Source: a virus. From it: a stretch of DNA of 28,784 nt. Position numbers and translations under genes: made by a program. A model generated the notes under the pieces. That model was not told where the DNA came from. It was given only the letters and a program-made list of their open reading frames with translations, and searched no databases. Positions 4,195-26,700 of the stretch are shown one piece after another (position 1 is the first letter of the stretch; each line of letters starts with the position of its first letter). The stretch spans positions 1 through 28,784 of IMG/VR virus record IMGVR_UViG_3300025117_000638; one strand, 5' to 3'.

Positions 4195-4299
4195 TCACCA
4201 GGGACAGCCAGGGCCCTGATGCCGTAGTGCGCCCCCCCAGGGAGGAATCCCCACCCCAACAAGGCCGCTCAGCCTGTACAGGGCACTACAGACGCTCAC
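4195..4299 (-). CDS. Possible 34-residue peptide in the connector gene gap
   Basis: The only open frame in the gap between the head closure and tail completion genes begins with GTG at 4299, overlapping the head closure stop as GTGA, the coupling style used throughout this operon. It encodes a short Gly/Pro/Trp-rich peptide with no recognisable domain. It may be a chance frame in a GC-rich leader region. I include it only because of the coupled start. Confidence 0.2.
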   Translation of the reverse strand: MSVCSALYRLSGLVGVGIPPWGGALRHQGPGCPW

Positions 4300-4673
4300 G
4301 AGCCACCTCCGGTTGGCCGGCAGTGGGCCGAGTAGATCACGTCTACCCCTCCAGGGGAGGTCCGGGTGACGCTCAGCACCTCCAGGATCTCCGCCCCGTC
4401 TACGACCCGGCAGGAGGGTGTGGGCGTTACCGTCAGGCCCTCGGCTGCGATCAGGTACTTCCGGTCCCCCGACTGCACCAGCGTCCCGTCGATCTCCTGT
4501 GCTTGGAACTCCGTCACCACGGCCCTGGCAGCGTAGTCCGTGTTCGTCACGACCGGGCGGTAGGCCTTAATGGGGGCCGTCGTCGTCTGGACCCGCAGCG
4601 TCACCGCCTTGCCCTTGCTCTGGATTAAGGCGCCTGCCTTCGCCCGCAGCCCGGTATAGAAGGCCGTACTCAT
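4296..4673 (-). CDS. Head closure (stopper)-like protein
   Basis: 125-residue, beta-rich protein beginning MSTAFYTGLRAKAGALIQSKG. Its C-terminal half (IAAEGLTVTPTPSCRVVDG, then a valine-rich strand) resembles the small beta-barrel stopper proteins that close the connector after packaging. It is coupled to the upstream adaptor gene by an ATGA overlap and lies exactly where the stopper gene is expected (adaptor, stopper, tail completion, terminator). Identification rests mainly on synteny and size. Confidence 0.65.
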   Translation of the reverse strand: MSTAFYTGLRAKAGALIQSKGKAVTLRVQTTTAPIKAYRPVVTNTDYAARAVVTEFQAQEIDGTLVQSGDRKYLIAAEGLTVTPTPSCRVVDGAEILEVLSVTRTSPGGVDVIYSAHCRPTGGGS

Positions 4674-5179
4674 GCCACCCTCGTCACTGGCACAATACTG
4701 CCGTCGCCGCTCACTGACAAGGGCTCAAGGAGGCGCTTCACGTAAGGGAAGTCGGCTTCCGGGGAAGCCCAGTCCAGGTAGACCACCTCGATCACGTCCA
4801 CCTTTTCCGACTTGACCCCACCTCCCCTGGCGAGGCTGGCATTGAGTGCGGCGTCGATGTGGGCCTTGGCCATCTCTGCCACTGCTGCCTTCACCTGCCA
4901 GGGAATTGTGGTGTCGGAGATCAGCCGGCCCTCGTCGTCGTAGCAACTCTGCCGCGGCCAGTCGAGCACCTGGTCGGTAGTATAGATGAGCCCGCCCCAG
5001 AGGAAGTGTTCATCCACCCACTGGGTCGCATACCGCAGGGCGGCGTCCTTGGCTGCATCCGATGCCCCAGTCCAGGCGGCCGGGCTACCGTGATTCGCCC
5101 AGTAGGCGGTTGCGTCTGCGCGGGCCAGGTAGCTGTCCGCCCCCGTGACAACCGTTCCATCTTCGACGACCAGGGCCAT
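4670..5179 (-). CDS. Head-tail connector / adaptor protein (DnaT_2-like family)
   Basis: 169-residue protein starting MALVVEDGTVVTGADSYL. The N-terminal pattern (V.dGt.v..AdSYla..da..Yw...G), followed by an alternating helical domain with CYDDEGRLI, matches a phage family usually labelled 'putative DnaT-like ssDNA-binding protein'. Its gene position and fold suggest a head-tail adaptor. A strong GGAGG lies just before the ATG at 5179. It follows the coiled-coil protein gene by one base. The DnaT label in databases is probably historical; the connector role is an inference from position. Confidence 0.7.
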   Translation of the reverse strand: MALVVEDGTVVTGADSYLARADATAYWANHGSPAAWTGASDAAKDAALRYATQWVDEHFLWGGLIYTTDQVLDWPRQSCYDDEGRLISDTTIPWQVKAAVAEMAKAHIDAALNASLARGGGVKSEKVDVIEVVYLDWASPEADFPYVKRLLEPLSVSGDGSIVPVTRVA

Positions 5180-5180
5180 C

Positions 5181-5648
5181 TCAGCCTCCGCTTGCCTTCA
5201 CGGCGTTTGCGGCTGCGGCGGCACGGGTCGCCACGGCCATGTCACCCTCGGTTGCGGCTACTACCCGCTGCCGGGCCTCGGCCGCAGCCTTCTCCCGTGC
5301 CTCGTTCTCCTCGGCTTCCCGGGCCTCCAGGTACCCCTGGATCAGGGCCCTGGCGTCCTCGTCTTGCTCCATCAGGTCGCGCACCCGCTGCGCGAACGCC
5401 ATGGTCTGACGCATCTCCGACTCCAGCGCCCGTAGCAGAAGGAGCTGTCGGTGCTGCCCGTCGCGGCCGCCGGAAATCTGCATCACCGCCGTCAGGCCCT
5501 CCTGCATCACGTCAACAACGACGCGGGCCCCAGGCGCAGCCGTTGGCAGTGGATGCCGTAGCACAGCAGGCGCCGGCAGCACAGCTACCGGTCTCACCCC
5601 CGGTTCCCCGGGCCGTGGATGCCGTTGCGCTCGATTGCCGTCAGCCAT
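5181..5648 (-). CDS. Uncharacterised phage protein with C-terminal coiled coil
   Basis: 155 residues: a Pro/Ala-rich N-terminal third, a middle helix (QLLLLRALESEMRQTM) and a long charged alanine- and glutamate-rich helix (about residues 70-155) likely to form a coiled coil. AGGAGG lies 8 bases before the ATG at 5648, the strongest ribosome site in this area, so it probably re-initiates translation after the glycan cassette. No family recognised. It sits at the border where the virion connector genes resume, so a minor virion or assembly role is possible but unproven. Confidence 0.65.
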   Translation of the reverse strand: MADGNRAQRHPRPGEPGVRPVAVLPAPAVLRHPLPTAAPGARVVVDVMQEGLTAVMQISGGRDGQHRQLLLLRALESEMRQTMAFAQRVRDLMEQDEDARALIQGYLEAREAEENEAREKAAAEARQRVVAATEGDMAVATRAAAAANAVKASGG

Positions 5649-5660
5649 CGCAGTGACCTC

Positions 5661-6416
5661 CTAAGTGAGAGAGCCCTTCACCTCGCGGATGCCGTACTTG
5701 GCCTTCACCAGGCTCCAGAACTCGCCGTTGCGCTTGTGGCGGTAGGGTGCGTAGGCCGGGTTGCTGCCAGGGATGTGGTTGATCAGCGTCCCTGGGTAGT
5801 AGCCGACTCGCAGGTCGGCCCGCGTCGCCCTGCCGTCGTAGATCGGGAAGCCGTTACTGCGGCAGCGCAGGAAGAAGTCATGGTGCTCGCAGACCTTCAG
5901 GCGCTCGTCCCACAGCACTCGGCGCACTGCCTCTGCCCGCCCGACCCAGAAGTTCCAGCAGATGTCCACGTCGATGGGGCACCCGTCCAGGCTACGCAGT
6001 GGCGACAGCCGTAGTACCCCATCGACCAGGCGCATGCGGCCCTCGAAGTGGGCTGGGCTGCCGTCATGGAGCACCAGGCCGCCGGCGATGTCGAACAGGC
6101 CCTCCTCTACCATCCGCACCAGGGGCTCCACGCGGGTGCCCGGGATCATCACGAAGTCGTCATCCAGCAGCACGAAGGTCTCGGTCTCAACCTCGGCCAG
6201 GAGTGTGTTTCGGCCGACTGACAGCCCTACGTCATGCGGCAGCTCGAGTAGCCGGGCATCAAATACGCTGCAGACGTCCTGCACCCGGGCATGGTCGCGG
6301 GCGTCGTCAGCCACCAGGGCCCTGGCGTTCGGGTAGAGGGAGCGTAGGCTGCGCAGCAGCCGCGCCAGCTCCTCCGGGCGCTCCAGCGTCTTGACTACGA
6401 AGGTCGTCCGGTCCAT
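5661..6416 (-). CDS. GT-A glycosyltransferase (GT2-like)
   Basis: 251-residue protein with a nucleotide-binding N-terminus (FVVKTLERPEELARLLRSL, then a valine-alanine strand ending in DD at 37-38). The metal-binding acidic motif DDDF is at residues 85-88. The acceptor half contains a 'D..WNFWVGR' segment (about 150-165) and an EHHDFFLRC motif, as in GT2-like and beta-1,4-GalNAc-transferase-like enzymes. It transfers a sugar from a nucleotide donor; acceptor unknown. It is paralogous to the gene at 8282-9007 (shared GLS.GRN, DDF and EH.DFF.RCR blocks). It begins ATG in a TAATG overlap with the preceding epimerase gene. It is the last gene of the sugar cassette before virion connector genes resume. 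Confidence 0.85.
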   Translation of the reverse strand: MDRTTFVVKTLERPEELARLLRSLRSLYPNARALVADDARDHARVQDVCSVFDARLLELPHDVGLSVGRNTLLAEVETETFVLLDDDFVMIPGTRVEPLVRMVEEGLFDIAGGLVLHDGSPAHFEGRMRLVDGVLRLSPLRSLDGCPIDVDICWNFWVGRAEAVRRVLWDERLKVCEHHDFFLRCRSNGFPIYDGRATRADLRVGYYPGTLINHIPGSNPAYAPYRHKRNGEFWSLVKAKYGIREVKGSLT

Positions 6417-7285
6417 TACGCCGCCATCCCGGCCTGCAGCTCTGCCGCGTGGGCCATGAAGTACTCCCAGGTTCGCACCAGCCCGTCCTCAAGGGCGGTG
6501 GTGCAGGCGAACCGGGCGTCCCGGTGGACGGGCAGGACTGGCTGCCGCTCCTCAGGGCCGTGCTCGACCTGGACGCCGATGTTGCAGCAGGTAGCACCTG
6601 CCTTTCGGCCCGTGGCGAGCAGCAGTTGCGCCAAGTCGAGCGTGCTCGTCAGGGTATTAGTGCCAACGTAGTGCCAGGGTTCGTCGTCCCACGCCAGTGG
6701 GTCATGCAGGCGCCGCTCGATGACCTCTGCCACATCATCGACGTAGGTGAAGTCGCGCAACTGGAACCCACCCCAGACCTTGAGGTTCATGGGCTGCCGT
6801 AACAGTAGTTGCTTCATCCACTTGGCGATCACCGAGGTCTTGTACAATGACCCCGGCCCGTACACGTTTGCCAGCCGCAGCACTGTTACCTCAAGCCCCC
6901 ACAGCTCACGCGCCATCTGGCACCACTGCTCCGCAACGTATAGGCTCCAGCCGTAGACTGAGGCACAGCGCTCGACGGAGGCGGCCGAGGCGACGATCAC
7001 CCGGCCGATGCGAGCCGCATTCGCTGCCCGCAGGACGTTGAAGGTGCCCGTGTCGTTGGTGCTCTGCGCCCGGCCCGGGTGGGCATTGCAGTCCCGCGCG
7101 CCAGTCTCCCCGGCGAGGTGAATGACGGCCTCGCAGCGGCGCATGGCATGAAGCACGGCCAGGGTGCGCACGTCCTGATGTCGGTCGTCAGCCACGTCAT
7201 AGGGTATGGCGGGGCCCGCGAGGCGCCACATGAGGGCGCGGCCGATGAAGCCGGCGCTCCCCGTGACCAGGATCTTGCCGTTCAC
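6416..7285 (-). CDS. NAD-dependent epimerase/dehydratase (extended SDR) with altered active site
   Basis: 289-residue Rossmann protein: the dinucleotide-binding loop GSAGFIG is at 9-15, followed by VIHLAGETGARD, SAAS and a family-typical C-terminal block with LRLANVYGPG and FTYVDDVAEV. It belongs to the extended SDRs that epimerise, dehydrate or reduce nucleotide sugars (GalE/RmlD-like). Oddly, the catalytic YxxxK reads YGWSL at 111-115, so the lysine that activates the tyrosine and binds the nicotinamide ribose is leucine. The enzyme may have lost SDR catalysis or use another residue. The start is GTG at 7285, overlapping the glycosyltransferase stop (GTGA). Its stop shares one base with the next start (TAATG). 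Confidence 0.85.
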   Translation of the reverse strand: MNGKILVTGSAGFIGRALMWRLAGPAIPYDVADDRHQDVRTLAVLHAMRRCEAVIHLAGETGARDCNAHPGRAQSTNDTGTFNVLRAANAARIGRVIVASAASVERCASVYGWSLYVAEQWCQMARELWGLEVTVLRLANVYGPGSLYKTSVIAKWMKQLLLRQPMNLKVWGGFQLRDFTYVDDVAEVIERRLHDPLAWDDEPWHYVGTNTLTSTLDLAQLLLATGRKAGATCCNIGVQVEHGPEERQPVLPVHRDARFACTTALEDGLVRTWEYFMAHAAELQAGMAA

Positions 7286-8271
7286 GTCACGCTTCCTTCC
7301 AGGGCCTTCTCAAGGACGCCCAGTAGCTCACCGGCCCGCTGCTCTACCCCGTAGCGCTCATGCACCAGCTGATACCCGGCGTCGGCGATGGCCTGGAGCC
7401 GGTCCGGCTGCGCCAGCCACTTCTCGACGGTGCCCCGCAGGTTTAGGTCGTTCAGTGACAAAGGTACCATGTTCACGTCCGGCTGCCACCCCAGGTCGCC
7501 CATCTCGTCGATCCAGTCGCAGGCCAAGGCCGTCCGACAGGCACATATCTCGTAGAGCTTGGTGACCGGGTAACTGTAGACGGAGGTGCAGGCAAAGGCC
7601 ATGCGGGCTCGCCCAAGCTCGCGGGCGTAGGCCTCTCCCAGCGGCCAGACCTCAGTCGACCCGGGTTTTTCCACTGGTTTCGGAAGGCACTTGTACCCAT
7701 CGAAGCCAGTCATGGCACGGTGGATCCGGTCGCGGAGGGCGTAGACTACCGGGTGGCTGGTACCAGTCGTGAGGCAAGCCACGTCGCGCGGCAACTCGTA
7801 GTCCCGGTATACCGCCTGATCAACCCAGTACGGAAACCAGGCAATCTGCACCTGCGAGCTAGCCCAGATGTCGGGGTGGTACCGCCGCATCCCCTCCCGG
7901 TAGATCGGTAGGAACAGGCGGAAGCCGAACCGGGCCCAGGCCGCGCCGGCGTACTCCTGCACCATCTGGCCGTGCATGTCGCCCAGGAACACCGCCTTGA
8001 GGGGCCGGGTGATGCGCTCCCAGGGCTCGGTCATGTAGGAGTACATCGCGTCGCACACCACCACGTCGCAGCCGTTGGCCTGGTTGATGTCGAGGATGGG
8101 CACGCAGGGCCGCTTGGACAGCATGACCTGCCGGCACCAATCCCCCTCAGTTTCTTCGTAGTGCCGGCGCACCACAGTCACCTCAGTGCGTCGGCCTACC
8201 GCCTCCATGAGCGGGCCATAGTAGTCGATGGTCCCGACCGGTCGGTGGTTAGTCAACCAGAGAATCCTCAT
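7282..8271 (-). CDS. GT-B-like glycosyltransferase (GT4/CgeB-type)
   Basis: 329-residue protein starting MRILWLTNHRPVGTIDYYG, a typical GT-B N-terminal Rossmann strand. The C-terminal donor domain carries SVYSYPVTKLYEICACRTAL, matching the 'P.K.fE..acG..vl' signature of CgeB/GT4-like transferases, followed by a C-terminal helix with HERYGVEQRAGELL. It probably transfers a sugar to a growing glycan or protein. The neighbours are two GT-A enzymes and an epimerase. Its ATG lies in the second copy (in transcription order) of a 14-bp tandem duplication; the first copy contains an ATG that opens a four-codon frame ending in TGA. Confidence 0.8.
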   Translation of the reverse strand: MRILWLTNHRPVGTIDYYGPLMEAVGRRTEVTVVRRHYEETEGDWCRQVMLSKRPCVPILDINQANGCDVVVCDAMYSYMTEPWERITRPLKAVFLGDMHGQMVQEYAGAAWARFGFRLFLPIYREGMRRYHPDIWASSQVQIAWFPYWVDQAVYRDYELPRDVACLTTGTSHPVVYALRDRIHRAMTGFDGYKCLPKPVEKPGSTEVWPLGEAYARELGRARMAFACTSVYSYPVTKLYEICACRTALACDWIDEMGDLGWQPDVNMVPLSLNDLNLRGTVEKWLAQPDRLQAIADAGYQLVHERYGVEQRAGELLGVLEKALEGSVT

Positions 8272-8285
8272 CAGAGAATCCTCAT
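8258..8285. repeat. Perfect 14-bp tandem duplication at a gene junction
   Basis: The unit cagagaatcctcat occurs twice head to tail (8258-8271 and 8272-8285). In transcription order, the first copy overlaps the upstream glycosyltransferase stop as ATGA and encodes only Met-Arg-Ile-Leu before a TGA. The second copy provides the start of the real downstream gene (again Met-Arg-Ile-Leu). Because 14 is not a multiple of 3, the duplication displaced the original coupled start. Confidence 0.9.
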
Positions 8286-9007
8286 TGCGCCACCGTCCAT
8301 ACTACCCGCTCCCAGCCCCACCGGCGCTTGACGATGTCCCAGAATTGCGCCGAGCGATTGCGAAAGGCCGCGTAGCCTACCGGGTGTTTGGAGTCGTGGA
8401 TGCAGCTGACGCTGGGGCAGTACCCGACGCGCACCCCTGCCAGCCGGCAGCGCCAGAAGAAGTCCTCGTGCTCAATCATCTTCAGCGGCTCGTACCACCG
8501 CAGCTCGCGCAGCACCTCTACCTGGGCCACCATCCAGTTGAGCACGATGTGCATGGGACAGGTCTGCCTGGGGTTGGGCCGGTACAAGTGCAACTCAGCG
8601 CCTACCTGCTCCATCAGGCCCTCGTACCGCTGTAGGGTGCCGTTGGGCCTCACCAGGCTGCCGCCGAGGAGGTCATAGTCCCCCAGCTCCGAGCAGAAGC
8701 GTTCCAGCTTGGTAGCCGTTGTGAAGACGAAGTCATCTTCAGCAATGGCGATGAACTTCGTGTCAGCCTCGTCCGCCAGGCGATTGCGGCCAGCGGACAG
8801 CCCCGAGTCGAAGTCCATACGGATGCAGCGGGCGCCAAACTCCTCACACAGGCCCTCGGACGACTGCCGGCCGTCATCGGCGACAAGCACCGGTAGCTCG
8901 GGGTAGAAGTGCCGCACGCTCTTCAGCAGGCTGCGCAAGCACTCCGGCCGGTCGAAGGTCTTGATGCCGAGGGTCAGGTCCTTCATGGCTTTGCCCGTGC
9001 TCCTCAT
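8282..9007 (-). CDS. GT-A glycosyltransferase (GT2-like), paralogue of the gene at 5661-6416
   Basis: 241-residue protein with the GT-A layout: GIKTFDRPECLRSLLKSV at the N-terminus, the VADDG loop near 42-46, GLSAGRN near 69-75, the acidic metal motif EDDF at 90-93 and IEHEDFFWRCRLAG in the acceptor half. Each block has a counterpart in the gene at 5661-6416, so the two arose by duplication and may add successive sugars. The ATG at 9007 overlaps the sulfotransferase stop by 4 bases; a second ATG eight codons in (8986) is an alternative start. The product probably acts in the cytoplasm on a lipid-linked, free or protein-linked acceptor, which the sequence does not reveal. Confidence 0.85.
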   Translation of the reverse strand: MRSTGKAMKDLTLGIKTFDRPECLRSLLKSVRHFYPELPVLVADDGRQSSEGLCEEFGARCIRMDFDSGLSAGRNRLADEADTKFIAIAEDDFVFTTATKLERFCSELGDYDLLGGSLVRPNGTLQRYEGLMEQVGAELHLYRPNPRQTCPMHIVLNWMVAQVEVLRELRWYEPLKMIEHEDFFWRCRLAGVRVGYCPSVSCIHDSKHPVGYAAFRNRSAQFWDIVKRRWGWERVVWTVAQ

Positions 9008-9636
9008 GGCACTACCTGTGCCAGCCGGTTCTCGGCCGCAGCCGGGTACTGGTCGAGGGCTACTGGGTCAGCTACGCCTATCCACCGCATCATCTCCCGC
9101 TGCTTGGCTTGCGAGTTGAGATCCCGGGTGGGCCAGATGTGGAAGGCCCCTGGGTACCGCCTCTGCCACTCCTGCGCCAGGGTATGCACCAGGCTCCAGT
9201 ACATCGTCGCTGTCCGGCTCCGTGGCGACAGAAAATCAGGCACCTCGGCCAGCCAGCCCGTCCCCGACATGACAGACTGCACAAACCCGTCACAGTCGCG
9301 CTCCAGGTGGACCACCGCAGCCCCGTACTCCTCGATCAGCACGGACACCAGCGGTAGGTACCAGGGTCCGATGTCGCCGACGATCTTCTCCCCCTCATCC
9401 CAGGGGCCGCGCACCTCCACCCCGGCCTCCCACAGGGCGTCCGCTGGCCGCTCTCTCTGGGCCGCCTCTCTCCAGCGAGCCACGGCCTCTCGTAGGGGGA
9501 CATCCCCGCCTACCCACGGCAGGCGCAGCCGCTCGTGGGTCAGGCCACACCGCGGCTGTGCCAGCGCGAGCACCCGCAGGCTCTTACTGCCGCAGCGCCC
9601 CGTCCCCGTGCCGAAGGCCAGTCTCAGGTCGTTCAC
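9004..9636 (-). CDS. Sulfotransferase-like P-loop protein, copy 2
   Basis: 210-residue protein with the N-terminal motif GTGTGRCGSKSL (residues 9-20). This has the form of the 5'-phosphosulfate-binding loop of PAPS-dependent sulfotransferases ('G..R.GT..L'). Conserved blocks follow: WEAGVEVRGPWDEGEKIVGD, an IGPWYLPL segment, HLERDCDGFVQS (in the place of the usual 3'-phosphate-binding R..S region) and EWQRRYPGAF. It is paralogous to the adjacent gene 9633-10307 but lacks about 15 residues in its middle. The start is GTG at 9636 in a GTGA overlap. Predicted role: transfer of sulfate to a glycan made by this cassette. A different P-loop transferase such as a kinase cannot be excluded. Confidence 0.75.
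   Translation of the reverse strand: MNDLRLAFGTGTGRCGSKSLRVLALAQPRCGLTHERLRLPWVGGDVPLREAVARWREAAQRERPADALWEAGVEVRGPWDEGEKIVGDIGPWYLPLVSVLIEEYGAAVVHLERDCDGFVQSVMSGTGWLAEVPDFLSPRSRTATMYWSLVHTLAQEWQRRYPGAFHIWPTRDLNSQAKQREMMRWIGVADPVALDQYPAAAENRLAQVVP
9356..9432. repeat. 77-bp near-identical segment shared with 10036-10112 (copy in sulfotransferase 2)
   Basis: This segment matches 10036-10112 at 75 of 77 bases; the two differences are a/g changes near the middle. It encodes the strongly conserved WEAGVEVRGP to IGPWYLPL region. The rest of the two genes is much more diverged, so either strong constraint or recent gene conversion is needed to explain the block. Confidence 0.85.
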
Positions 9637-10307
9637 GGGCCCACCTTCGCCAGGCGATTTTCGGCACGGTCGGGGTAGCGGTCAAGCGTCACTGGATCAT
9701 CGACCCCTAGCCACTGCATCATCTCCCGCTGCCTCTCCCGCAAGTCGAGGTCCCACATCGACCAGGCGCGGAAGCCCTCCGGGTACTCCCGCACCCATTC
9801 CTGCGCCATCTCATGCACCAGGTCCCACCAGTGTCCCGCCGCTTCGGCCCGGTTGCCGGGGAACTTCGGGATGCAGGTCAGGTAAACGTCGCTGGCTGGA
9901 GCTACTCCGGCGTCGGGGTGGAGGGAGAAGCAGTCCCAGGAGCAACGCAGGGCGGAATCGACGTAGGCGGAACGCTCGCGCTCCAGGTGGATCACCCGGG
10001 CACCGTGGCGCTCAATGAGAGCCGGGACGAGGGGCAGGTACCAGGGTCCGATGTCGCCGACGATCTTCTCCCCCTCGTCCCAAGGGCCGCGCACCTCCAC
10101 CCCGGCCTCCCAGGTGGCTTCGCCCGGTCGGGGTCCGGCAGCGGCGTCCTGCCACAGTTGCAGGGCCTCCGGCAGTAGCGCCTGGCCGCCGCTCCAGGGT
10201 AGATGTAGCCGCTCGTGGGTTACGAAACATCGCGGCTGTGCCAGCGTGAGCACGCGAAGACTCTTCGTCCCACATCGCCCCGTGCCAGTGCCGAAGGCCA
10301 GCCTCAC
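9633..10307 (-). CDS. Sulfotransferase-like P-loop protein, copy 1
   Basis: 224-residue protein beginning at GTG 10307, which overlaps the aminotransferase stop as GTGA. The N-terminal GTGTGRCGTKSL (residues 6-17) fits the 5'-phosphosulfate-binding loop of PAPS-dependent sulfotransferases. Near residue 115 an HLERERSAYVDSAL segment occupies the usual R...S 3'-phosphate-binding position. The middle part, with CSWDCFSLHPDAG and YLTCIPKFPG, has no counterpart in copy 2 and may set acceptor specificity. No PAPS synthesis genes are seen, so the host would have to supply PAPS. Assigned from motif and context; biochemical activity is inferred. Confidence 0.75.
   Translation of the reverse strand: MRLAFGTGTGRCGTKSLRVLTLAQPRCFVTHERLHLPWSGGQALLPEALQLWQDAAAGPRPGEATWEAGVEVRGPWDEGEKIVGDIGPWYLPLVPALIERHGARVIHLERERSAYVDSALRCSWDCFSLHPDAGVAPASDVYLTCIPKFPGNRAEAAGHWWDLVHEMAQEWVREYPEGFRAWSMWDLDLRERQREMMQWLGVDDPVTLDRYPDRAENRLAKVGP
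10036..10112. repeat. 77-bp near-identical segment shared with 9356-9432 (copy in sulfotransferase 1)
   Basis: Second member of the 77-bp pair, offset by exactly 680 bases from the first. Both lie in the same codon phase of the two paralogous sulfotransferase-like genes, so they are homologous coding blocks and not an inserted element. Confidence 0.85.
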
Positions 10308-11422
10308 CGGGCAGCCTCCAGGATGGTAGAGATGATGGCCTGCTGATCGGCCAGGCCCAGGCTGGAGCCCGAAGGCAGGCAAAGCCCGTCTCGGTTCAGC
10401 TTCTCCGCGACCGAGCCACCGTAGACCCTGTTCCCTGCTAGGCACGGCTGCCGGTGCAGGGGCAGGAACAGCGGGCGCGAGTCGAAGCCCCGGGTCTGAA
10501 GCAGGCTCCAGACGTCCTCCGCCGTGGCCCCGAAGAGCTCGGGGTCGATCACGATACCGGTCAGCCAGGCGTTGCTGCGCGTGCCTGCGGATTCCCCCTG
10601 GAACCGGATGCCGGGATGCTGCAAGGCTTGCTGATACCGGGACCTCACGGCGCGGCGGCTGGCGATCCGGGACGGCAACTGCATGAGTTGTCCCTGTCCC
10701 ACAGCAGCCAGTAGGTTGCTCAGGCGGTAATTGAACCCGACCTCCTGGTGGAGGTACTGCGGCCCCGGCTCCCGCGCTTGGGTCGCCAGGTGGCGGGCGC
10801 GGTCGACCAAGTCCGTCCGGTGCCCGGTCACCAAAGCTCCGCCGCCGCCAGTGGTGATGATCTTGTTGCCGTTGAAGGAGAAGATGCCCAGGTCTCCAAG
10901 GATACCGACCGAGGCGTCCCGGTAGGTAGCCCCCAGGGCAGCGGCGGCGTCCTCGATGATCGGCACCCCGTAGAGCTGACAGGCGGAGCGGATGGCATCC
11001 ATGTGCGCCGGCTGGCCGTACGCATGCGTCACGGTGACGGCAGCAATGGCCCCCTGATGCTCGTCCAGGGCCTCCTGCAGCAGCCCGGCGTCCATGCACC
11101 ATGCGTGGGGCTCCGCGTCGATGAAGAGGGGCCGTGCCCCCAGGTGCACGGCCGGGCCGACGGAGGCGATGAAGGTCAGCGTGGAGCAGGCCACCAGGTC
11201 GCCGGCCCCGATGCCGAGCACCCGGTAGGCCAGGTCGAGGGCAGCGGTCCCCGAGCAGGTCGCCAGTGCCGCCGCGGCGCGCGTCTGCGTCTGCAACTCC
11301 CGCTCGAACCTCTCCACGTACGGTCCCAGCGGAGCGATCCAGTTGGAGTCGAAGGCATCGAGCAACAGGGCACGCTCGACAGGCCCAACATCAGGCGGGG
11401 ACAGATGGCTACGGAGACTCAC
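10304..11422 (-). CDS. DegT/DnrJ/EryC1-family sugar aminotransferase
   Basis: 372-residue PLP enzyme of the sugar aminotransferase family. It shows ATCSGTAALDLA (about 53-66, cofactor phosphate contacts), the IIEDAAAALGA block with the PLP-ring aspartate at 158, and FSFNGNKIITTGGGG with the Schiff-base lysine at 187. Length is normal for the family. The enzyme aminates a 4-keto nucleotide sugar, most often using glutamate. It lies between an acyltransferase and sulfotransferase genes, downstream of a dehydratase that could supply its 4-keto substrate, as in PglE/PseC routes. The start is GTG at 11422, overlapping the acyltransferase stop (GTGA). Confidence 0.92.
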   Translation of the reverse strand: MSLRSHLSPPDVGPVERALLLDAFDSNWIAPLGPYVERFERELQTQTRAAAALATCSGTAALDLAYRVLGIGAGDLVACSTLTFIASVGPAVHLGARPLFIDAEPHAWCMDAGLLQEALDEHQGAIAAVTVTHAYGQPAHMDAIRSACQLYGVPIIEDAAAALGATYRDASVGILGDLGIFSFNGNKIITTGGGGALVTGHRTDLVDRARHLATQAREPGPQYLHQEVGFNYRLSNLLAAVGQGQLMQLPSRIASRRAVRSRYQQALQHPGIRFQGESAGTRSNAWLTGIVIDPELFGATAEDVWSLLQTRGFDSRPLFLPLHRQPCLAGNRVYGGSVAEKLNRDGLCLPSGSSLGLADQQAIISTILEAAR

Positions 11423-12042
11423 AGGGCTACCAGGTCAGGGTCCAGCGCCCGGTCAGTTGCGAACTCCAAGCCAGGGCGCTGCCCGAAGGGCTGGGGAAGC
11501 TGGCGGGCATAGTGGGTGCTCCCAGGTGAGATGTCCTGCTGCACGACGGCACCCGCCCACACCTTGGCACCCGGCCCGATGCTGCGGTTCGGCACCACTA
11601 CAACCCCAGTTCCCAGGACTGCCCGCGCCCCCACCTTGACGCCGCCTGCCAGCAGGCACCCCGGCGCCAGGTTGGCAAAGCTGCCGATCTCGCAGTCGTG
11701 GGCGATGCTGGTGTGAGCCTGCAGCACCGCACCGTCCCGCACAACGGCCTTGCCAGCGACTGTAACGAACGGCTCGATCAGCACCCCGAAGCCTACCTCG
11801 GCGCGGGATGAAACCTGCGCCAGGGGCGAGATGAGGGTCAGGGGAGTCCGGCAGCAGGCGAGAATCGCGGCGATGGCGTTCTCCACCATGCTCGGCGTCG
11901 ATCCAAGCGGATAGAGCAGCACGTCCTCCGGAGCGTCCCACGGGTGCTCTATGCGGCCCACGTACTCGTAACCCGGCCTGGCGTCGCAGATGTCCCGCAC
12001 GGCCAACTCAAAGCTCCCGTAACCGAGGCAGGCGATCTTCAC
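11419..12042 (-). CDS. Left-handed beta-helix sugar O/N-acyltransferase (PglD/NeuD-like)
   Basis: 207-residue protein. The N-terminal Rossmann-like part (VKIACLGYGSFELAVRDI) is of the PglD/NeuD nucleotide-sugar-binding type. From about residue 75 come hexapeptide repeats (isoleucine/valine-glycine periodicity: GVLIEPFVTVAGKAVVRDGA and later SIGPGAKVWAGAVV) with the catalytic-type histidine in TSIAHDCEIG. PglD-type enzymes N-acetylate UDP-4-amino sugars; NeuD-type enzymes O-acetylate sialic acid. Next to a 4,6-dehydratase and an aminotransferase, the PglD role is more likely. The start is GTG at 12042 (GTGA overlap); a longer frame to 12105 only adds a shadow of the upstream gene's end. Confidence 0.88.
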   Translation of the reverse strand: MKIACLGYGSFELAVRDICDARPGYEYVGRIEHPWDAPEDVLLYPLGSTPSMVENAIAAILACCRTPLTLISPLAQVSSRAEVGFGVLIEPFVTVAGKAVVRDGAVLQAHTSIAHDCEIGSFANLAPGCLLAGGVKVGARAVLGTGVVVVPNRSIGPGAKVWAGAVVQQDISPGSTHYARQLPQPFGQRPGLEFATDRALDPDLVAL

Positions 12043-13073
12043 GTCGTTGCCTCCGCGTCGTCCGACACCAGGCGGGCAAGGGCGGCCCGCACATCTGCGG
12101 GGCACCCGTCTGTGATCGCCATTTTCAGCCCGAAGAACTTTGAGTCAGTTGTCAGGAGTGGCTGCGGGTACGGCTGGCGGCAGATCAGCAGGTCGTCAGC
12201 CGGCTCCGTCACCTCGTCTTGGTAGAGGGGTCGCTCTGACAGTTTCTCCACCGGGGACAGCTGGGTGTACAGGACCGTCTCGGAGCGACCGTGCAACTCC
12301 ATGACCCGCTGGGCCAGATCGGCTATCCGCACCGGCGGGAACAGGGGCATGGTCACAAGCGGAGCCTGGGACAGGGCCGCAGCCTGGACTGCGGCCCGCG
12401 CCGCCTCGCTTACCGTCACGAAGTGGCGCTCTACGTCCGGGTGGGACACCACCAGGGGCAATCGCTGTTGCAGCCGGGACTCGAAGATGGGCAGGACACT
12501 GCCACTGCTGCCAAGCAGGTTGACGAGGCGCAACACCGTGACCTCCAGGCCGGCTTGCCCCCGGAAGCCATAGGCCAGGCGCTCGCAGACGTGCTTGGTG
12601 GCCCCGTAGACGCAGACCGGGGACACGGCCTTGTCTGAGGAGATGAGCAGTAGGCGCCGCACCCCGGCCGCCTTTGCGGACGAGGCTAGTGCCGCCAAAC
12701 CACCCACGTTGTTCTTTACCCCGGCTCGGGGCATTGCTTCGACCAGCCCGACGTGCTTGTGGGCGGCCGTGTGAATCACCACCTGGGCCTGCGTGAGGCT
12801 CAGCAGGTCCCCCACTTGGCGTGCCATCGTGACGCTGCACAGGTGCGTGCTTGCCTCGGGCACCTCCCGCGCCATCTCGTACAGGGCCACCTCGGAGTGG
12901 TCGCAGCAGTGCAACTCCTCCACCTGCCCGGCCAGCAGGCGGCAGATGGCGGTCCCCAGCGTTCCGGCCCCCGTGACCAGCACGGAGTAGGGTGCCAGGG
13001 CAACCAGCGCAGCACTGAGGTCACAGGGCACCTCGTTGCGGTCGAGCAGGGCGCGGACGACATCAGGGCGCAT
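12039..13073 (-). CDS. UDP-sugar 4,6-dehydratase, CapD/FlaA1 (PglF/PseB-like) SDR
   Basis: 344-residue soluble protein. The NAD-binding TGAGTLG loop is at 34-40; IHTAAHKHVGLVEA at about 100-113 is the hallmark 'H.AA.KHV..vE' of the polysaccharide-biosynthesis dehydratases. SSDKAV (D147, K148) and YGATK (Y156, K160) complete the active site. These enzymes convert UDP-GlcNAc to a 4-keto-6-deoxy sugar. The membrane domains of large PglF/WbpM proteins are absent, as in FlaA1/PseB. Tyrosine at 156, eight residues after K148, resembles the FlaA1/PseB arrangement rather than the methionine of WbpM/PglF. With the aminotransferase and acyltransferase downstream it forms a three-step amino-sugar route. 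Confidence 0.9.
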   Translation of the reverse strand: MRPDVVRALLDRNEVPCDLSAALVALAPYSVLVTGAGTLGTAICRLLAGQVEELHCCDHSEVALYEMAREVPEASTHLCSVTMARQVGDLLSLTQAQVVIHTAAHKHVGLVEAMPRAGVKNNVGGLAALASSAKAAGVRRLLLISSDKAVSPVCVYGATKHVCERLAYGFRGQAGLEVTVLRLVNLLGSSGSVLPIFESRLQQRLPLVVSHPDVERHFVTVSEAARAAVQAAALSQAPLVTMPLFPPVRIADLAQRVMELHGRSETVLYTQLSPVEKLSERPLYQDEVTEPADDLLICRQPYPQPLLTTDSKFFGLKMAITDGCPADVRAALARLVSDDAEATT

Positions 13074-13530
13074 GGGTGTCTCCCGATAGCAGCGCTACTA
13101 CTCTCGGCCGGTTGAGGTTCTGGCCCTCAAAGGCAAGCAGGCGGTCCAGGAACGGGCGGTCGCACCCCTCCACCAGGGCTGTGAGCTTGTTCCGGGGTAG
13201 CCGCAGCAGCTCCTCCTCAAGGCTCTGCTGGGCCCGGAGCACGACGCTGGGCTCGGGCTCAGGTGCGGGCTCAGGTGCGGGTAGGAGTGTCGGCACGGGT
13301 TTGGGTGCAGGTGTATCAGGCTGAGCTTGCGCCATCACTGCGTCCTCACTGAGGATTCGCACTGTGTGATAGCGCGTCAGGATACGTGAGGCAACCTCGG
13401 CCTCCCCGTTGGGGAGCGTGAGGCAGCCATTCTCGAAGTACCAGCCGGTTACTACCTGGCAGTCTGGCGTTGGCTGCGGCAGGAAGCCGGTGTAGCCTGC
13501 CAGGGCCCCGTAGGCCTCAAAGGTCTTCAC
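13063..13530 (-). CDS. Uncharacterised protein sharing an N-terminal domain with the product of 14187-15197
   Basis: 155 residues from GTG 13530 (GAGG upstream; overlaps the methyltransferase end by 14 bases). The N-terminal 55 residues (KTFEAYGALAGYTG, WYFENGCLTLPNGEAEVASR, ILTRYHTVRIL) align with residues 2-52 of the larger protein two genes upstream. A Pro/Ala/Glu-rich linker and a C-terminal helical part (ELLRLPRNKLTALVEGCDR) follow. No known family recognised. Its position inside the glycan cassette, directly after a methyltransferase, and the domain sharing suggest both proteins bind the same partner, perhaps a virion protein. This is an inference. Confidence 0.7.
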   Translation of the reverse strand: MKTFEAYGALAGYTGFLPQPTPDCQVVTGWYFENGCLTLPNGEAEVASRILTRYHTVRILSEDAVMAQAQPDTPAPKPVPTLLPAPEPAPEPEPSVVLRAQQSLEEELLRLPRNKLTALVEGCDRPFLDRLLAFEGQNLNRPRVVALLSGDTHAP

Positions 13531-14179
13531 CGCGGCCTCGGCACATGGCATACATCTCGGACCCCAGCCACGGGAAGGCTCGCCGTAGCGGGCCGTAGGA
13601 CAGCCAGCGGATACCCCAGGGTGCATCGACAAAGCGCACGTCTACCTCCCACACCTCCCAGCCCTGATTGGCAAGCACCTGCACGAGAAGGTGCCGGTCG
13701 TAGCCCTGCAAGTGTCCCTCTGGTTCACCCTGCAGCTGGCGCCGGGCTGCCCTCCAGAAGCGTCGTGGTCTCAGGAGGTTGGGGGTCATGATGAGAGCCC
13801 AACCGGCCACCCGGCGCATCTCCCGCAGCAGCCCAACCGGGCTCTCGACGTGCTCGATCAGGCCGGTCGCCACTGCTACGTCAATGGCGGCATCTGCGAA
13901 CGGTAGGGCGAGGGCGTCCCCGACCTCTATTTCGGCAGTAGGGGCGTGGGTGCGGGCGATGTCCACCAGTGCAGGATCCAGGTCCACCCCATAGCAGCAG
14001 AAGCGCTCGTCGCCCTCCAGGCTCTCCAGGAACTCACCCATGCCGACGCAGCAGTCCAGCACGCGCAGAGGGCAGCCCCCAAGGGCTGCGATCTCCTCAA
14101 GCTGCCGGCGCACGATAGCGTGCCCTTCAAGCCGCGAGGGCAGGCCCCGGGTCCGGTCGATGTGGGCAGTCCAGACCAC
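13517..14179 (-). CDS. Class I SAM-dependent methyltransferase
   Basis: 220-residue protein with the SAM-binding motif I VLDCCVGMGEF (40-50), the acidic ribose-binding motif YGVDLDP, a GDALALPFADAAID motif and an 'ATGLIEHVESP...LLREMRRV' block, as in Methyltransf_11-type small-molecule methyltransferases. Such enzymes methylate sugars, lipids or other small substrates; the EHVESP segment is common in sugar and polyketide O-methyltransferases. It begins at GTG 14179, 7 bases after the upstream gene. In this context it could methylate the glycan or its precursor. The cysteines in motif I in place of the usual glycine are a little unusual. Confidence 0.85.
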   Translation of the reverse strand: MVWTAHIDRTRGLPSRLEGHAIVRRQLEEIAALGGCPLRVLDCCVGMGEFLESLEGDERFCCYGVDLDPALVDIARTHAPTAEIEVGDALALPFADAAIDVAVATGLIEHVESPVGLLREMRRVAGWALIMTPNLLRPRRFWRAARRQLQGEPEGHLQGYDRHLLVQVLANQGWEVWEVDVRFVDAPWGIRWLSYGPLRRAFPWLGSEMYAMCRGRGEDL

Positions 14180-14186
14180 GGCCTTC

Positions 14187-15197
14187 TCAGGCCGCCTTGG
14201 CCCTCAGGGCCGTGGTCAGCTTGCGTACCACGTCCTGCCGCGGCCGGGCCTTGCGGCTCTCGGCCTCCAGGGCACGCAGGACAAAGTCCCGGGACAGGCC
14301 GCTGATGAACTGCTCGTCCTTGAGGGCCCGGCGGATGTCGCGCACCGGCTGCACGACGAACTTCTCCGCGGTCATCTCCGGGTCCGTCACCTGCGGCGCC
14401 AGGATGTGCTCGGGTACCTTCACGCCAAGGCGGTTGGCGAACATCTCCAGCACCAGCGGCCTACGGTCACTGCTCGCCATCTCGGCATCGTAGGCAGCCT
14501 GGACGAGCTGGCGCGTGAACACCCCGATCATCTCCTCGTCAGTGAGCAGCTGGCGGATCTCCTCGGGTGCCTTAGTGAGCAGCCGGGTCACGAGCCCGCT
14601 ATCCAGCTCAGGCTCATCGACGGCCGCCGGCGCCTCCGGCGGTGCTACGGTCTGGCCCTCCACGTTGGGCGGTGAATCCTCGGTGCCTCTGGCCACTACC
14701 GGGTGACCGTCCGGGGCCTCCAGGTGTACGCCGGTACGCGTCAGGTGCTCGGTCTCTGAGCCCGTGCGGTTGGGGTCCGGGGCGGCAGGATTGGTCGGGA
14801 TGTAGCGTAGCCGGCCTTCCGGTATCCCGGCCTTCTGGTAGGCCTGCACGACGGCCTCGCAGCCGTCGGTGACCAGGACGCCGTCGACCTTCTGCTGCAG
14901 GTCGGTCTCCAGCGTCCCAAGCTCGTCAGGATGGCGCACTACCAGTGCCCGGCCGGGCCAGGTCTCTCGCGCCACGGTCTGGGCGCGGCTGCGCCAGTCG
15001 TTGCTGGCCTTGGGCCCCCAGATGTGTACTACCATGTCGTCGGTCTCCAGAATGCGGACAGTGTGGAAGCGGCAGAGGATGCGGGCTGCCGCATTGGCCT
15101 CGGCGTCCGGGAGCTGAAGCCGCCCCTCGACGAACCACCAGCTCGCTACCGAGCCGGTGATGTTCGCCAGCGGGCCATGTGCCTCAAAGGTCTTCAT
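14187..15197 (-). CDS. Uncharacterised 336-residue protein with the shared KTFEA domain
   Basis: Starts at the ATG at 15197 (GGAG upstream). Residues 2-52 (KTFEAHGPLANITG, WWFVEGRLQLPDAEAN, ILCRFHTVRIL) match the N-terminal domain of the product of 13063-13530. Residues about 55-140 contain a segment with VDGVLVTDGCEAVVQAY and GIPEGRLRYIPTNPAA. This loosely resembles the donor-domain junction of GT-B transferases ('advvl..S....v..y...G.p..ri.vIp.g'), but there is no complete glycosyltransferase. The C-terminal 150 residues are helical and charged. It is the first large gene after the capsid genes, so a capsid-associated or glycan-acceptor role is possible. No confident function. Confidence 0.7.
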   Translation of the reverse strand: MKTFEAHGPLANITGSVASWWFVEGRLQLPDAEANAAARILCRFHTVRILETDDMVVHIWGPKASNDWRSRAQTVARETWPGRALVVRHPDELGTLETDLQQKVDGVLVTDGCEAVVQAYQKAGIPEGRLRYIPTNPAAPDPNRTGSETEHLTRTGVHLEAPDGHPVVARGTEDSPPNVEGQTVAPPEAPAAVDEPELDSGLVTRLLTKAPEEIRQLLTDEEMIGVFTRQLVQAAYDAEMASSDRRPLVLEMFANRLGVKVPEHILAPQVTDPEMTAEKFVVQPVRDIRRALKDEQFISGLSRDFVLRALEAESRKARPRQDVVRKLTTALRAKAA

Positions 15198-15221: not shown

Positions 15222-15485
15222 CTACTTTTCGGTCGTGACGGTGATCTCAGGCGTGCCGGTAACTACCCGGGTAGACCGTGACTCGCTACGGTAGTTCCGG
15301 TCGTGGCACTCCTCCTCGATGATGTGCCCGCCCTCTGCCTTGGTGATGCGGAGATTCAGGGTCTCGCCGTCGGTAGGAGCGGTCACCTTGATCCGGCTAC
15401 TGGCCGGTGACGGGCTCGGCAGGCCTAAAGCTGGCCTGGGCTCGGCGCGGCGGACACCGGTCGGCATGGAGAGCTTGCGCGGCAT
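15222..15485 (-). CDS. Small uncharacterised protein downstream of the major capsid gene
   Basis: 87 residues: a basic Pro/Arg/Ser-rich N-terminus (MPRKLSMPTGVRRAEPRPA) and a C-terminal beta-like part (TLNLRITKAEGGHIIEEE ... TPEITVTTEK). AGAGAGGA lies before the ATG at 15485. It follows the capsid gene after a 117-base gap containing two strong hairpins. A flexible basic N-terminus with a small beta domain could suit a capsid-binding decoration protein, but no family is recognised. Confidence 0.65.
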   Translation of the reverse strand: MPRKLSMPTGVRRAEPRPALGLPSPSPASSRIKVTAPTDGETLNLRITKAEGGHIIEEECHDRNYRSESRSTRVVTGTPEITVTTEK

Positions 15486-15602: not shown

Positions 15603-16514
15603 TTAGTTGGTGACCCCCGTCCCGGCCGCAAGGCCGTTCAGGTTGAACAGTGCGAGCCCACAGTACCAGAGCACGCGGGTGATGTGCTCATCGCGCGTCT
15701 GGTGCTCCCCTACGTCCTTGATCACGATGCCGCCGTCGTTGGCAGCCGTCAGACCTGCGATCCCGATGCTCTCGGAGCCGTCGTCGAAGGTGCCAGCGAG
15801 GACCGTGGTGCAGTTGGTCAGCGACCCTGCCGTCTGGTTGACCGGGATGTAGTCGTTGCGGAAGATCGGGATGCTCCGGTACGCCGGGACCGTTGCACCG
15901 TTCGGCAGCTGCACCACCTCCGTGACGGAGGCACCGCCGAGGGAGCGCACCAGGTTGAAGAAGCTGCGCCGGGTGCGCGCGTTCATGGCGAAGTAGTCGA
16001 CCTCACCGTCCTTGTCCGTCACCAGGTCGATGAGGTTGTCGAGCAGGGCGAAGCTGAGCGCCCCGTCCTGTGCGACGATCTTGGTGGCGTCCACGAGGGC
16101 GAGCAGCCCGGTGAACTGGTTGTTGATACCGGTGCCATTGACCAGCATGTCCTGGAACTGGCGACCGGCCGACTTCGCCTTGCTTGCTACCTGTGAGCCG
16201 GTCTGGTCGGTGTGACTGGACCGGGTAGCCTGGATCAGGCCGTTGACCTCCGCGTCCCCGACGATGGTTGTCAGGGCGCTGGTGACGGAGGTGAAGGTTG
16301 CAGCGGCCTTGCCGGCGACGATCTCCGTACCGACCGTGCCCAGCTGCACCGCACCCAGCGCATTCTCTCGGGTGTACTGCAGGGCATTACCATCGATGGT
16401 CTCGAACGGCAGTGCCTCGTACATCTGGTTCACGGTGATCACGTTCTCGATCACCCCGGCGATCAACTCGTTGTCGCTGAGTTTCGCCGACTCGACCAGC
16501 GTTACTGATGCCAA
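15603..16514 (-). CDS. Major capsid protein (HK97-type fold)
   Basis: 303 residues, starting MASVTLVESAKLSDNELIAG. It matches the HK97-like coat family in order: an N-terminal arm (VIENVITVNQMYEALPFETI), an E-loop-like segment (TRENALGAVQLG), a long spine helix region (EVNGLIQATRSSHTDQTG, FQDMLVNGTG), and an 'A...RTRRSFFNLVRSLGG' helix with the typical C-terminal P-domain strands (IPIFRNDYIPVNQTAG). The start is TTG at 16514, with AGGAG eight bases upstream and no in-frame ATG nearby. It lies between scaffold and connector genes and is bracketed by hairpins. A protease gene is not seen, so processing is unlikely. Confidence 0.9.
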   Translation of the reverse strand: MASVTLVESAKLSDNELIAGVIENVITVNQMYEALPFETIDGNALQYTRENALGAVQLGTVGTEIVAGKAAATFTSVTSALTTIVGDAEVNGLIQATRSSHTDQTGSQVASKAKSAGRQFQDMLVNGTGINNQFTGLLALVDATKIVAQDGALSFALLDNLIDLVTDKDGEVDYFAMNARTRRSFFNLVRSLGGASVTEVVQLPNGATVPAYRSIPIFRNDYIPVNQTAGSLTNCTTVLAGTFDDGSESIGIAGLTAANDGGIVIKDVGEHQTRDEHITRVLWYCGLALFNLNGLAAGTGVTN

Positions 16515-23917: not shown

Positions 23918-24489
23918 CACAGACTGTTCTCGCTGCGGCCGTGGGTGATGTCGTCCAGAGCATGCAGGTATATCTGAATCCGGCCGGCGTGGTCTTGCGG
24001 GTCTACCGGCCCCTTGCCCGCCGCCTCTAGGCCGGCCTGCTGCTCGACCAGCCGCCCGATGCGACCCAGGAAGGTGTCGATGATCCGCCACAGATCAGGC
24101 CGCCGGCGCCTGACCTCCTCGAACTGCCGCCGCTGGGAGCCGGAATCGTCCCGGCGTTGGATGATCTCGGCTACCTCCATGCCTGCCGTCTTGTCCTGGT
24201 CGGTGGCCCACTCGTAGTAGCAGGCCAAGGCGCGATCGAGCATCACGCGACAGACGGCAATCTCCTGAGTGAGCCCGTCGAGTCGGCCCGCCTCGTCCAA
24301 AGTGGCCAACTCCCGATCCGTGAAATGCCGCGCGTAGATGCCGTGATCCACCGGCCTCCCCTTGGGCGCATGCTGCGCCCGGTGCAGGCCGCACCAGCCG
24401 GTATCGTCGGCAGGCCGCGTGCATCGGCAGCCCTGCGTGTCCGGCCCTAAGTGCTTGCAGCGCTCAGGCTGCTTCTTAGCTCTCGGCAT
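23917..24489 (-). CDS. Putative terminase small subunit with Cys/His N-terminus
   Basis: 190 residues. The N-terminus has C11, C21, C23, C33 and H36 arranged as CxnCxCxnCGLH, which may bind zinc. A DHGIYAR motif and helical segments (LTQEIAVCRVMLDRALACYY) follow, with a long C-terminal helix. Proteins with such a short Cys-rich head and HGIYAR-like motif commonly precede large terminase genes in phages. It would recognise the packaging site. Its ATG at 24489 overlaps the radical SAM end by 14 bases. I base this mainly on position; no direct small-subunit motif is visible. Confidence 0.65.
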   Translation of the reverse strand: MPRAKKQPERCKHLGPDTQGCRCTRPADDTGWCGLHRAQHAPKGRPVDHGIYARHFTDRELATLDEAGRLDGLTQEIAVCRVMLDRALACYYEWATDQDKTAGMEVAEIIQRRDDSGSQRRQFEEVRRRRPDLWRIIDTFLGRIGRLVEQQAGLEAAGKGPVDPQDHAGRIQIYLHALDDITHGRSENSL

Positions 24490-26682: not shown

Positions 26683-26700
26683 CGCCACTCTTCTCTATTT

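Follow-up and report, generated by a model that had tools for sequence, protein, structure and literature searches.

Virion glycosylation has been described in the mycobacteriophages Che8, Corndog, and Myrna (Freeman 2023, as cited in PMC12363180 and PMC12619734), and in Maravista, a member of the Che8 cluster, the glycosyltransferase (GT) genes are located close to the genome's 3' end (PMC11256854). Phage sulfotransferase-family genes have been reported from metaviromes, where their function was called unclear, or where they were considered putative auxiliary metabolic genes or suspected modifiers of nucleotides or proteins (PMC10580990, PMC8290583, PMC10829341). Similarly, a Mu-like virus from the Cariaco Basin carries SQD1, the UDP-sulfoquinovose synthase gene, which was interpreted as an auxiliary gene serving N-glycosylation in the host (PMC7785012). 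Phage sulfotransferases and UDP-sulfoquinovose synthases have thus far been catalogued as puzzling metabolic genes or have been assigned to host metabolism; our literature searches found no report of sulfation in phage virion glycosylation and no text connecting bacillosamine and phage auxiliary genes. Here we describe a locus in which sulfotransferases are linked to GTs and capsid genes, a linkage that offers one testable explanation, namely chemical coating of the virion.

The window, that is, the whole stretch of tailed-phage DNA analysed (28,784 nucleotides, IMG/VR record IMGVR_UViG_3300025117_000638), contains a cassette of 11 genes at 5661–14179, all on the minus strand, as are all features given below, and all with intact frames; 10 of them encode predicted enzymes. 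The first-pass annotation had the coordinates and strand right but counted ten genes and nine enzymes (the enzyme list given there itself sums to ten). Its placement of the cassette between the capsid gene and the head-tail connectors held: the major capsid protein (MCP) gene (15603..16514; phrog_212, E 4.8e-60; ∼67% identical to the MCP of Pseudomonas Abidjanvirus) lies upstream, and the genes for the head-tail adaptor Ad1 (4670..5179; phrog_477, E 3.5e-38) and the head closure protein Hc1 (4296..4673; phrog_161, E 2.1e-21) lie downstream. The flanks require correction, with two extra genes between MCP and cassette, encoding an 87-residue small protein (15222..15485; 42% identical to a relative in phage contig L003) and a 336-residue protein (lid1, discussed below), and with a 155-residue ORF between cassette and Ad1 (5181..5648) for which Pfam and PHROG searches returned no family match. 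The genes had also been described as joined mostly by 4-base overlaps. This is correct for CapD/NeuD, NeuD/DegT, DegT/ST1 (using the GTG at 10307 as the ST1 start), ST1/ST2, and GTB/SDR, and for ST2/GT2a only if GT2a starts at 9007; the remaining junctions differ, SDR/GT2b overlapping by one base and the others being gaps of 7–10 or overlaps of 11–35 bases. The cassette is presumably co-transcribed with the head genes. A recent host island was set aside as an origin, the cassette having a GC3 of 0.74–0.86 compared with 0.78–0.89 in the phage genes, and so was an assembly artefact, because contig L002 is identical from the capsid end up to the start of the methyltransferase gene and independent contigs keep the gene order.

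Three cassette genes encode predicted sugar-synthesis enzymes. The first is a short form of a PglF/CapD-like UDP-GlcNAc 4,6-dehydratase (12039..13073; Polysacc_synt_2/CapD, 4.5e-53), with Campylobacter jejuni PglF/WlaL as its best PDB match (E 7e-45) and the active site SSDKAVSPVCVYGATK, in which a Tyr stands where PglF, in the aligned entries, has Met. The second is a PglD/NeuD-like hexapeptide acetyltransferase (11419..12042, GTG start at 12042 in a 4-base overlap; Hexapep, 2e-14; best PDB match PglD, E 1.3e-13). The third is a PglE-like DegT aminotransferase (10304..11422; DegT, 4e-82), which retains the pyridoxal phosphate Lys in NGNKIITT and whose best PDB matches (E 1e-72) are 1o61 and 4ztc ("aminotransferase"; C. 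jejuni PglE). The PglF, PglE, and PglD families of UDP-di-N-acetylbacillosamine synthesis are therefore all present, each best matched in the PDB to a Pgl enzyme. In addition, the cassette encodes a class I SAM methyltransferase (MT; 13517..14179; Methyltransf_11, 1.3e-14) and, by Pfam, the phage's own GTs: GT2a (8282..9007, start at 9007 or 8986; Glycos_transf_2, 2.5e-11) and GT2b (5661..6416; Glycos_transf_2, 3.8e-13), both of GT-A fold, and GTB, of GT-B fold (7282..8271; Glyco_trans_1_2, 1.6e-7).

The two proteins first annotated as sulfotransferase-like, ST1 (9633..10307, GTG start at 10307) and its paralogue ST2 (9004..9636; 62% identical to ST1), are weak candidates by sequence and are backed by their predicted fold. 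Both lie under the Pfam cut-off (Sulfotransfer_3 E 0.058 for one and no match for the other), and Pfam and PDB sequence searches gave no clear assignment; a homologue in L003 scores above the cut-off (5.8e-7). The assignment came from fold prediction: the AF2 model of ST1 (pLDDT 83) has sulfotransferases as all of its top 13 Foldseek matches (E 8e-6) and aligns to TPST1 with Z 13.6 over 175 residues (rmsd 3.0). It also matches heparan 3-O-sulfotransferases (Z ∼11), a score that kinases reach too. TPST, the best fold match, sulfates tyrosine. A GxGxGRCG loop and R109...S117 are invariant across 25 ST homologues; by comparison with TPST residues, these PAPS-site-like motifs correspond to the 5'-phosphosulfate loop and the 3'-phosphate Arg/Ser pair, respectively. 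Overall, a PAPS-sulfotransferase fold is supported for ST1 and ST2 at the level of the model, and sulfation by the cassette is a supported prediction from this fold plus the recurrent linkage to SQD1. The fold alone does not identify the sulfotransferase acceptor.

SQD1 itself is lacking from the window. Viral homologues were found in L003, L162, and L164 and at about 100 IMG/VR loci; that of L003 has 1qrr as its best match (E 6.7e-86), and Y205...K209 (YxxxK) is invariant in four viral sequences. The slot held by SQD1 in L162 and L164 is occupied in the window by a short SDR epimerase-like protein (6416..7285; Epimerase, 1.4e-29), which has lost the catalytic Lys (YxxxK reads YGWSL). An ST lay within 8 kb of SQD1 at 5 of 79 SQD1 loci compared with none of 66 MCP-family loci, a difference not significant alone (p 0.06).

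Consistent with the first-pass proposal of a cassette tied to head genes, related genomes carry it in an ordered and adaptor-linked form. In the IMG/VR contigs L162 and L164 the cassette is syntenic, NeuD-(DegT)-ST-GT2a-GTB-X-GT2b-Ad1, where X is SQD1, at identities of 31–50% to the window, compared with 29–49% for structural genes. NeuD is 50% identical in L162 and 47% in L164, and GT2b homologues (43–45%) directly precede Ad1 in both. Homologues of GTB occur in L003 and L124 and, clearly, in L162 and L164, DegT has a clear homologue in L164, and the L124 cassette holds a 50% homologue of MT. The closest relative, L003 (MCP 75% identical), has a cassette of other content after its MCP, comprising SQD1, two STs, several GTs, and methyltransferases. 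Cultured Salinibacter ruber phages, of an unrelated genus, have an ST-GT2 pair between capsid and neck genes (MCP(phrog_10)-ST-GT2-small gene-neck), L159 reads MCP-like gene-small gene-GTs-MT-SQD1-connector-tube, and L074 reads MCP(phrog_14242)-gene-ST-ST. Head linkage is not universal, because the large phages L078, L080, and L092 carry ST-SQD1-GT cassettes by replication genes and not by head genes. A GT2 was present in 12 of 18 ST-bearing records and in none of 36 ST-less MCP relatives, these being fragments of unequal length that are not phylogenetically matched. The cassette is not a chance assembly: most of its genes have homologues in other phages' cassettes, two of which conserve the order. 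Some searches came back empty. No MCP was found in L124, L162, L164, and others, either because those contigs begin inside the cassette or because the phages have other MCPs. IMG/VR searches with the window lid1, GTB, and DegT and a single L003 SQD1, run behind an exact-peptide prefilter that was too strict, yielded nothing beyond L002 and L003; this means little because an SQD1 alignment later revealed L162 and L164 with their clear homologues of GTB and, in L164, of DegT. Among cultured phages, there was no GTB homologue, and the SQD1 search gave only weak epimerase-level matches.

A domain encoded beside the MCP gene may connect the GTs to the head. In lid1 (14187..15197), a domain of the MCP-adjacent family phrog_6213 at the N terminus is followed by a private C-terminal part; it is 46% identical to an L003 protein, and against a profile built from relatives it scores E 0.0085 and the L003 copy 4e-7. 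lid1 is possibly a docking or acceptor protein. The eleventh cassette gene, the only non-enzyme, encodes lid2 (∼162 residues; 13063..13551, start at ATG 13551 or GTG 13530), a second copy sharing this N-terminal domain. A fold search with this domain found nothing comparable in the PDB; the other hits were weak ones to unnamed phage proteins. In L003, the MCP-adjacent domain (52%, E 6e-11) forms part of a lid-GT2-GTB fusion, and the domain of an MCP-adjacent small protein is borne by the Salinibacter phage GT2 (49%, E 2e-13) and by an L159 GT (33%, E 7e-5). That such fusions recur in three phage lineages unrelated to one another points to the head, more than to the host surface, as the target.

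We posit that the cassette is a late-expressed operon for virion glycosylation and sulfation, and we consider it fairly likely that the phage's own head is what becomes glycosylated and sulfated. A glycan on the phage's own capsid or tail, as the first-pass annotation had suggested, best fits the L162/L164 synteny, the L003 cassette, the Salinibacter ST-GT2 pair, and the GT-domain fusions. The PglF-, PglE-, and PglD-like enzymes would convert UDP-GlcNAc to UDP-di-N-acetylbacillosamine or a close isomer; the soluble GT2a, GT2b, and GTB would transfer sugars in the cytoplasm straight onto a head-associated protein, the acceptor being either the MCP or the protein with the MCP-adjacent domain; ST1 and ST2 would then sulfate the glycan using host PAPS, and methylation by MT would cap it. 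In the relatives, sulfoquinovose made by SQD1 may give the same negative charge, additionally or instead. The outcome would be a head coated with a polyanionic glycan, which may shield it from antibodies, proteases, or adsorption traps, provide colloidal stability, or serve binding. The enzyme activities, sugar identity, acceptor, and benefit are all proposed on this basis.

Alternatively, a sulfated or bacillosamine unit could be placed on host LPS, capsule, or S-layer, blocking superinfection or altering receptor status; the first-pass annotation had also raised display on the host to block other phages, and we regard this reading as unlikely. PglFED-type genes, DegT, and SQD1-like enzymes characteristically occur in loci for cell-surface polysaccharides, and ST relatives lie near NeuD- and DegT-like genes in Thiobacillus (L114) and in a GT-rich locus of Planctomycetales ZRK34 (L107). 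However, 19-residue hydropathy shows no membrane-like segment in any cassette protein, no flippase, polymerase, or lipid-linked initiating enzyme (polyprenyl-phosphate sugar transferase) is found among the cassette genes, the head-operon position is kept across unrelated MCP types, and GTs are fused to MCP-adjacent domains.

Those head-domain fusions also argue against DNA hypermodification, in which the GTs, aminotransferase, and sulfotransferases would decorate modified bases in phage DNA and which we hold to be very unlikely. DNA glycosylation by virus-encoded GTs has precedent (Pyle 2024, as cited in PMC12619734), one metavirome paper raised nucleotide or protein modification as the suspected role of phage GTs and sulfotransferases that occur together (PMC10829341), and the window also encodes a radical SAM protein and a ParB-like protein. 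Nevertheless, these two genes were not found in L003, L162, L164, L124, or L159, and a thymidylate-synthase-type hydroxymethylase (PF00303 family) was found in none of the 18 ST-bearing records, many of which are fragments. About equally unlikely is direct sulfation of tyrosines or other groups of virion proteins by ST1 and ST2, with the glycan genes separate: the best structural matches are indeed tyrosylprotein sulfotransferases, but heparan 3-O-sulfotransferases match as well, the fold is silent on the acceptor, STs are fused to GT2 in L083 and Planctomycetales ZRK34, and an ST adjoins GT2 in the window, the Salinibacter phages, and L164. Least probable of all is moron cargo, in which the sugar genes would be selfish or transient and have no virion-tied function, because, although relatives differ in sugar genes (SQD1 compared with CapD and SDR), the frames are intact and core order and adaptor linkage are kept at identities like those of structural genes.

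Returning to modification of the phage's own head, we give an even chance to a broader proposition: that in several unrelated tailed-phage groups the head carries a coat of sulfated or sulfonated glycan, which phage enzymes make using a bacillosamine-type sugar or sulfoquinovose as well as sulfotransferases, and that the GTs reach the capsid through a domain taken from an MCP-adjacent protein. If true, the capsid would bear a polyanionic coat of a kind not known in bacterial viruses, and such a charged coat would affect adsorption, aggregation, immune clearance, and phage protein engineering. S. ruber M8 phages are in culture, and mass spectrometry of their digested virions has already been performed with a different aim (PMC11631230).

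Compared with known systems, the cassette is partly familiar. With the Campylobacter Pgl pathway it shares PglF, PglE, and PglD as the best PDB matches of its synthesis enzymes, but it is carried by a phage, its CapD is short, with Tyr for the PglF Met, and it lacks a PglC- or PglB-like lipid carrier or oligosaccharyltransferase step. Like the gtrABC O-antigen seroconversion cassettes, it is a set of phage-borne GTs; those cassettes, however, need a membrane flippase and a membrane transferase, whereas this one is free of membrane segments. The mycobacteriophages resemble it in encoding soluble GTs whose presumed targets are head or tail proteins, although the cited texts mention no sulfotransferase or sulfo-sugar synthesis. 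Whereas the Cariaco Basin SQD1 was assigned to host N-glycosylation, SQD1 in the relatives described here accompanies STs and GTs beside head genes, and where the metavirome papers offered unclear or suspected roles for sulfotransferases, the STs here are linked to GTs and head genes. Overall, what sets the window apart from the mycobacteriophages is a single operon, inside the head gene cluster, that is predicted to make, link, and sulfate a sugar.

The IMG/VR record is a linear sequence of 28,784 bases from a siphovirus-type phage, and all genes of interest lie on its minus strand. The gene for the major capsid protein (MCP; 15603-16514, phrog_212, E 4.8e-60) is followed by two small head-region genes (15222-15485 and lid1, 14187-15197), a cassette of eleven genes (14179 down to 5661), a 155-aa ORF, the head-tail adaptor Ad1 (4670-5179, phrog_477) and, adjoining Ad1 on the far side of the cassette from the MCP, the closure gene Hc1. 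In order, the cassette encodes a methyltransferase, lid2 (13063-13551), CapD, NeuD, DegT, two sulfotransferase-fold proteins (ST1 and ST2), the glycosyltransferases (GTs) GT2a and GTB, an SDR and GT2b. Ten of the eleven are enzymes, all reading frames are intact, and most junctions are 4-base overlaps. GC3 is 0.74-0.86 compared with 0.78-0.89 in the other genes of the phage, and codon use is alike.

The closest solved structures of CapD and the NeuD-like protein are Campylobacter jejuni PglF/WlaL (E 7e-45) and PglD (E 1.3e-13), respectively, and those of DegT are 1o61 and 4ztc (E 1e-72; aminotransferases by database label), which we take to be C. jejuni PglE. Together, the three enzymes may convert UDP-GlcNAc in three steps into UDP-di-N-acetylbacillosamine; the identity of the sugar is put forward tentatively because CapD has Tyr at the position of Met in PglF and because DegT enzymes vary in substrate. 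In the epimerase-like SDR (6416-7285), the catalytic YxxxK is replaced by YGWSL, and the enzyme may be inactive or altered. ST1 and ST2 (62% identity) are barely matched by Pfam. All 13 top Foldseek matches of the ST1 model (pLDDT 83, from 25 homologues) were sulfotransferases, and the best structural alignment was with tyrosylprotein sulfotransferase 1 (Z 13.6, 175 residues aligned); P-loop kinases scored about 11, as expected because the folds are related. The 25 homologues all keep a G-x-G-x-G-R-C-G loop and an Arg...Ser pair of the kind seen in PAPS-binding sites. The modeled fold does not specify the acceptor.

The nearest relative by capsid, L003 (MCP 75%, portal 58%), encodes after its MCP a lid1 homologue, an SQD1 homologue (UDP-sulfoquinovose synthase, E 7e-86), a fusion of GT2 with FkbM, a pair of STs, a lid-GT2-GTB fusion, a methyltransferase, a second GTB and an uncharacterized 259-aa protein (phrog_8198). 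The N-terminal domain of lid1 is common to phrog_6213; the middle and C-terminal part of the protein, comprising two helical segments that resemble each other, matches L003 only. Querying IMG/VR with the SQD1 alignment returned 103 loci (L123-L202 were kept). SQD1 homologues are widespread in environmental phages, but none of the 50,697 cultured phage records gave a convincing match. Two of these loci, L162 and L164, share synteny with the window, in the order NeuD, (DegT), ST, GT2a, methyltransferase, GTB, SQD1, small gene, GT2b, Ad1, Hc1, gp10-like, terminator, tube and chaperone, with SQD1 in the slot of the window's SDR and cassette identities (31-50%) on par with those of structural genes (29-49%). 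In a third, L124, a tape-measure-like gene is preceded by GT2s, GTB, a methyltransferase (50%), DegT, SDRs and SQD1. Thus, because the cassette sits with head genes in L162, L164 and L003, its genes are not scattered independently of them in this phage group, in keeping with the first-pass annotation, which had proposed a modified glycan on the virion or host surface.

Head linkage of this kind also occurs in unrelated phages. Among the cultured records, ST homologues were confined to Salinibacter ruber M8 phages (184 records), in which MCP (phrog_10), ST, GT2, a small gene and a neck gene follow in that order. Environmental locus L159 has, in order, a decoration-like gene, an MCP-like gene (both labeled by eye), a small gene, GT-like genes, a methyltransferase, SQD1, connector and tube. 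In L074, the MCP (phrog_14242) is followed by one gene, an ST and another sulfotransferase, and in L084, the MCP and a phrog_332 head-tail adaptor/portal-type gene flank the ST. Head linkage, though common, has exceptions: the ST-SQD1-GT cassettes of L078, L080 and L092 lie close to replication-type genes. Those of L078 and L080 (104-234 kb phages), by DNA replication genes, also hold GTs of the GT-D fold and of capsule-synthesis type, as well as methyltransferases.

Of 18 ST-bearing records, 12 have GT2 (PF00535), compared with none of 36 MCP relatives lacking ST (Fisher p 5e-8; 5e-7 without the window and L003), the two groups being fragments unmatched in phylogeny and length. ST and a window-type GT2 form a single protein in Planctomycetales bacterium ZRK34 and in phage locus L083, where a galactosyltransferase-like domain is also present; this argues for one product on which both sulfation and glycosylation act. 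The cellular ZRK34 fusion (L107:9848-11446), in a GT-rich locus of the chromosome, is 56% identical to that of L083, a likeness that hints at host-phage gene exchange. The main evidence for the head as the target is that, in three lineages, a GT bears the domain of a small protein encoded next to the MCP: L003 (phrog_6213 domain, 52%, E 6e-11), the Salinibacter phages (49%, E 2e-13) and L159 (33%, E 7e-5). About 40 relatives have a phrog_6213 homologue after the MCP. The predicted fold of this domain had no match among solved structures; docking and acceptor are candidate roles.

Most likely, the cassette would be co-expressed with the head genes, to the presumed benefit of the phage. Sugars would be made in the cytoplasm and transferred by soluble GTs, without a lipid carrier, to a head protein; ST1 and ST2 would add sulfate from host PAPS, and methylation would cap the chain. 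In relatives, SQD1 would supply a sulfonate group, so that two chemistries would yield the same charged product. The analysis establishes gene content, fold, synteny and fusions, and expression, activity, acceptor and benefit are inferred.

Modification of the host surface is a possible, weaker reading; no membrane segment was found in any cassette protein. Modification of DNA is also possible and weaker than a head target. In its favor, a survey that noted co-occurring GT and sulfotransferase genes led its authors to suspect that nucleotides or proteins undergo complex modification (PMC10829341); against it, a thymidylate-synthase-type hydroxymethylase was found in none of the 18 ST-bearing records, many of them fragments. 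Separately, a radical SAM protein (507 aa, PF04055 1.8e-11) overlaps a ParB-like gene (phrog_498) at 24476-26688 on the minus strand; the two might be a DNA-base modification pair, and neither was found in L003, Ab18, RcRudolph or the other relatives tested, cassette-bearing ones included.

A Cariaco Basin Mu-like virus with a UDP-sulfoquinovose synthase was interpreted as affecting host N-glycosylation (PMC7785012). The function of phage sulfotransferases has been termed unclear (PMC10580990), and we found no link between sulfation and phage virion glycosylation in the open-licence papers searched. Phage GTs are known to glycosylate virions in mycobacteriophages (Freeman 2023, as cited in PMC12363180 and PMC12619734), and mass spectrometry of Salinibacter phage virions is already published (PMC11631230), making the proposed head modification quickly testable.
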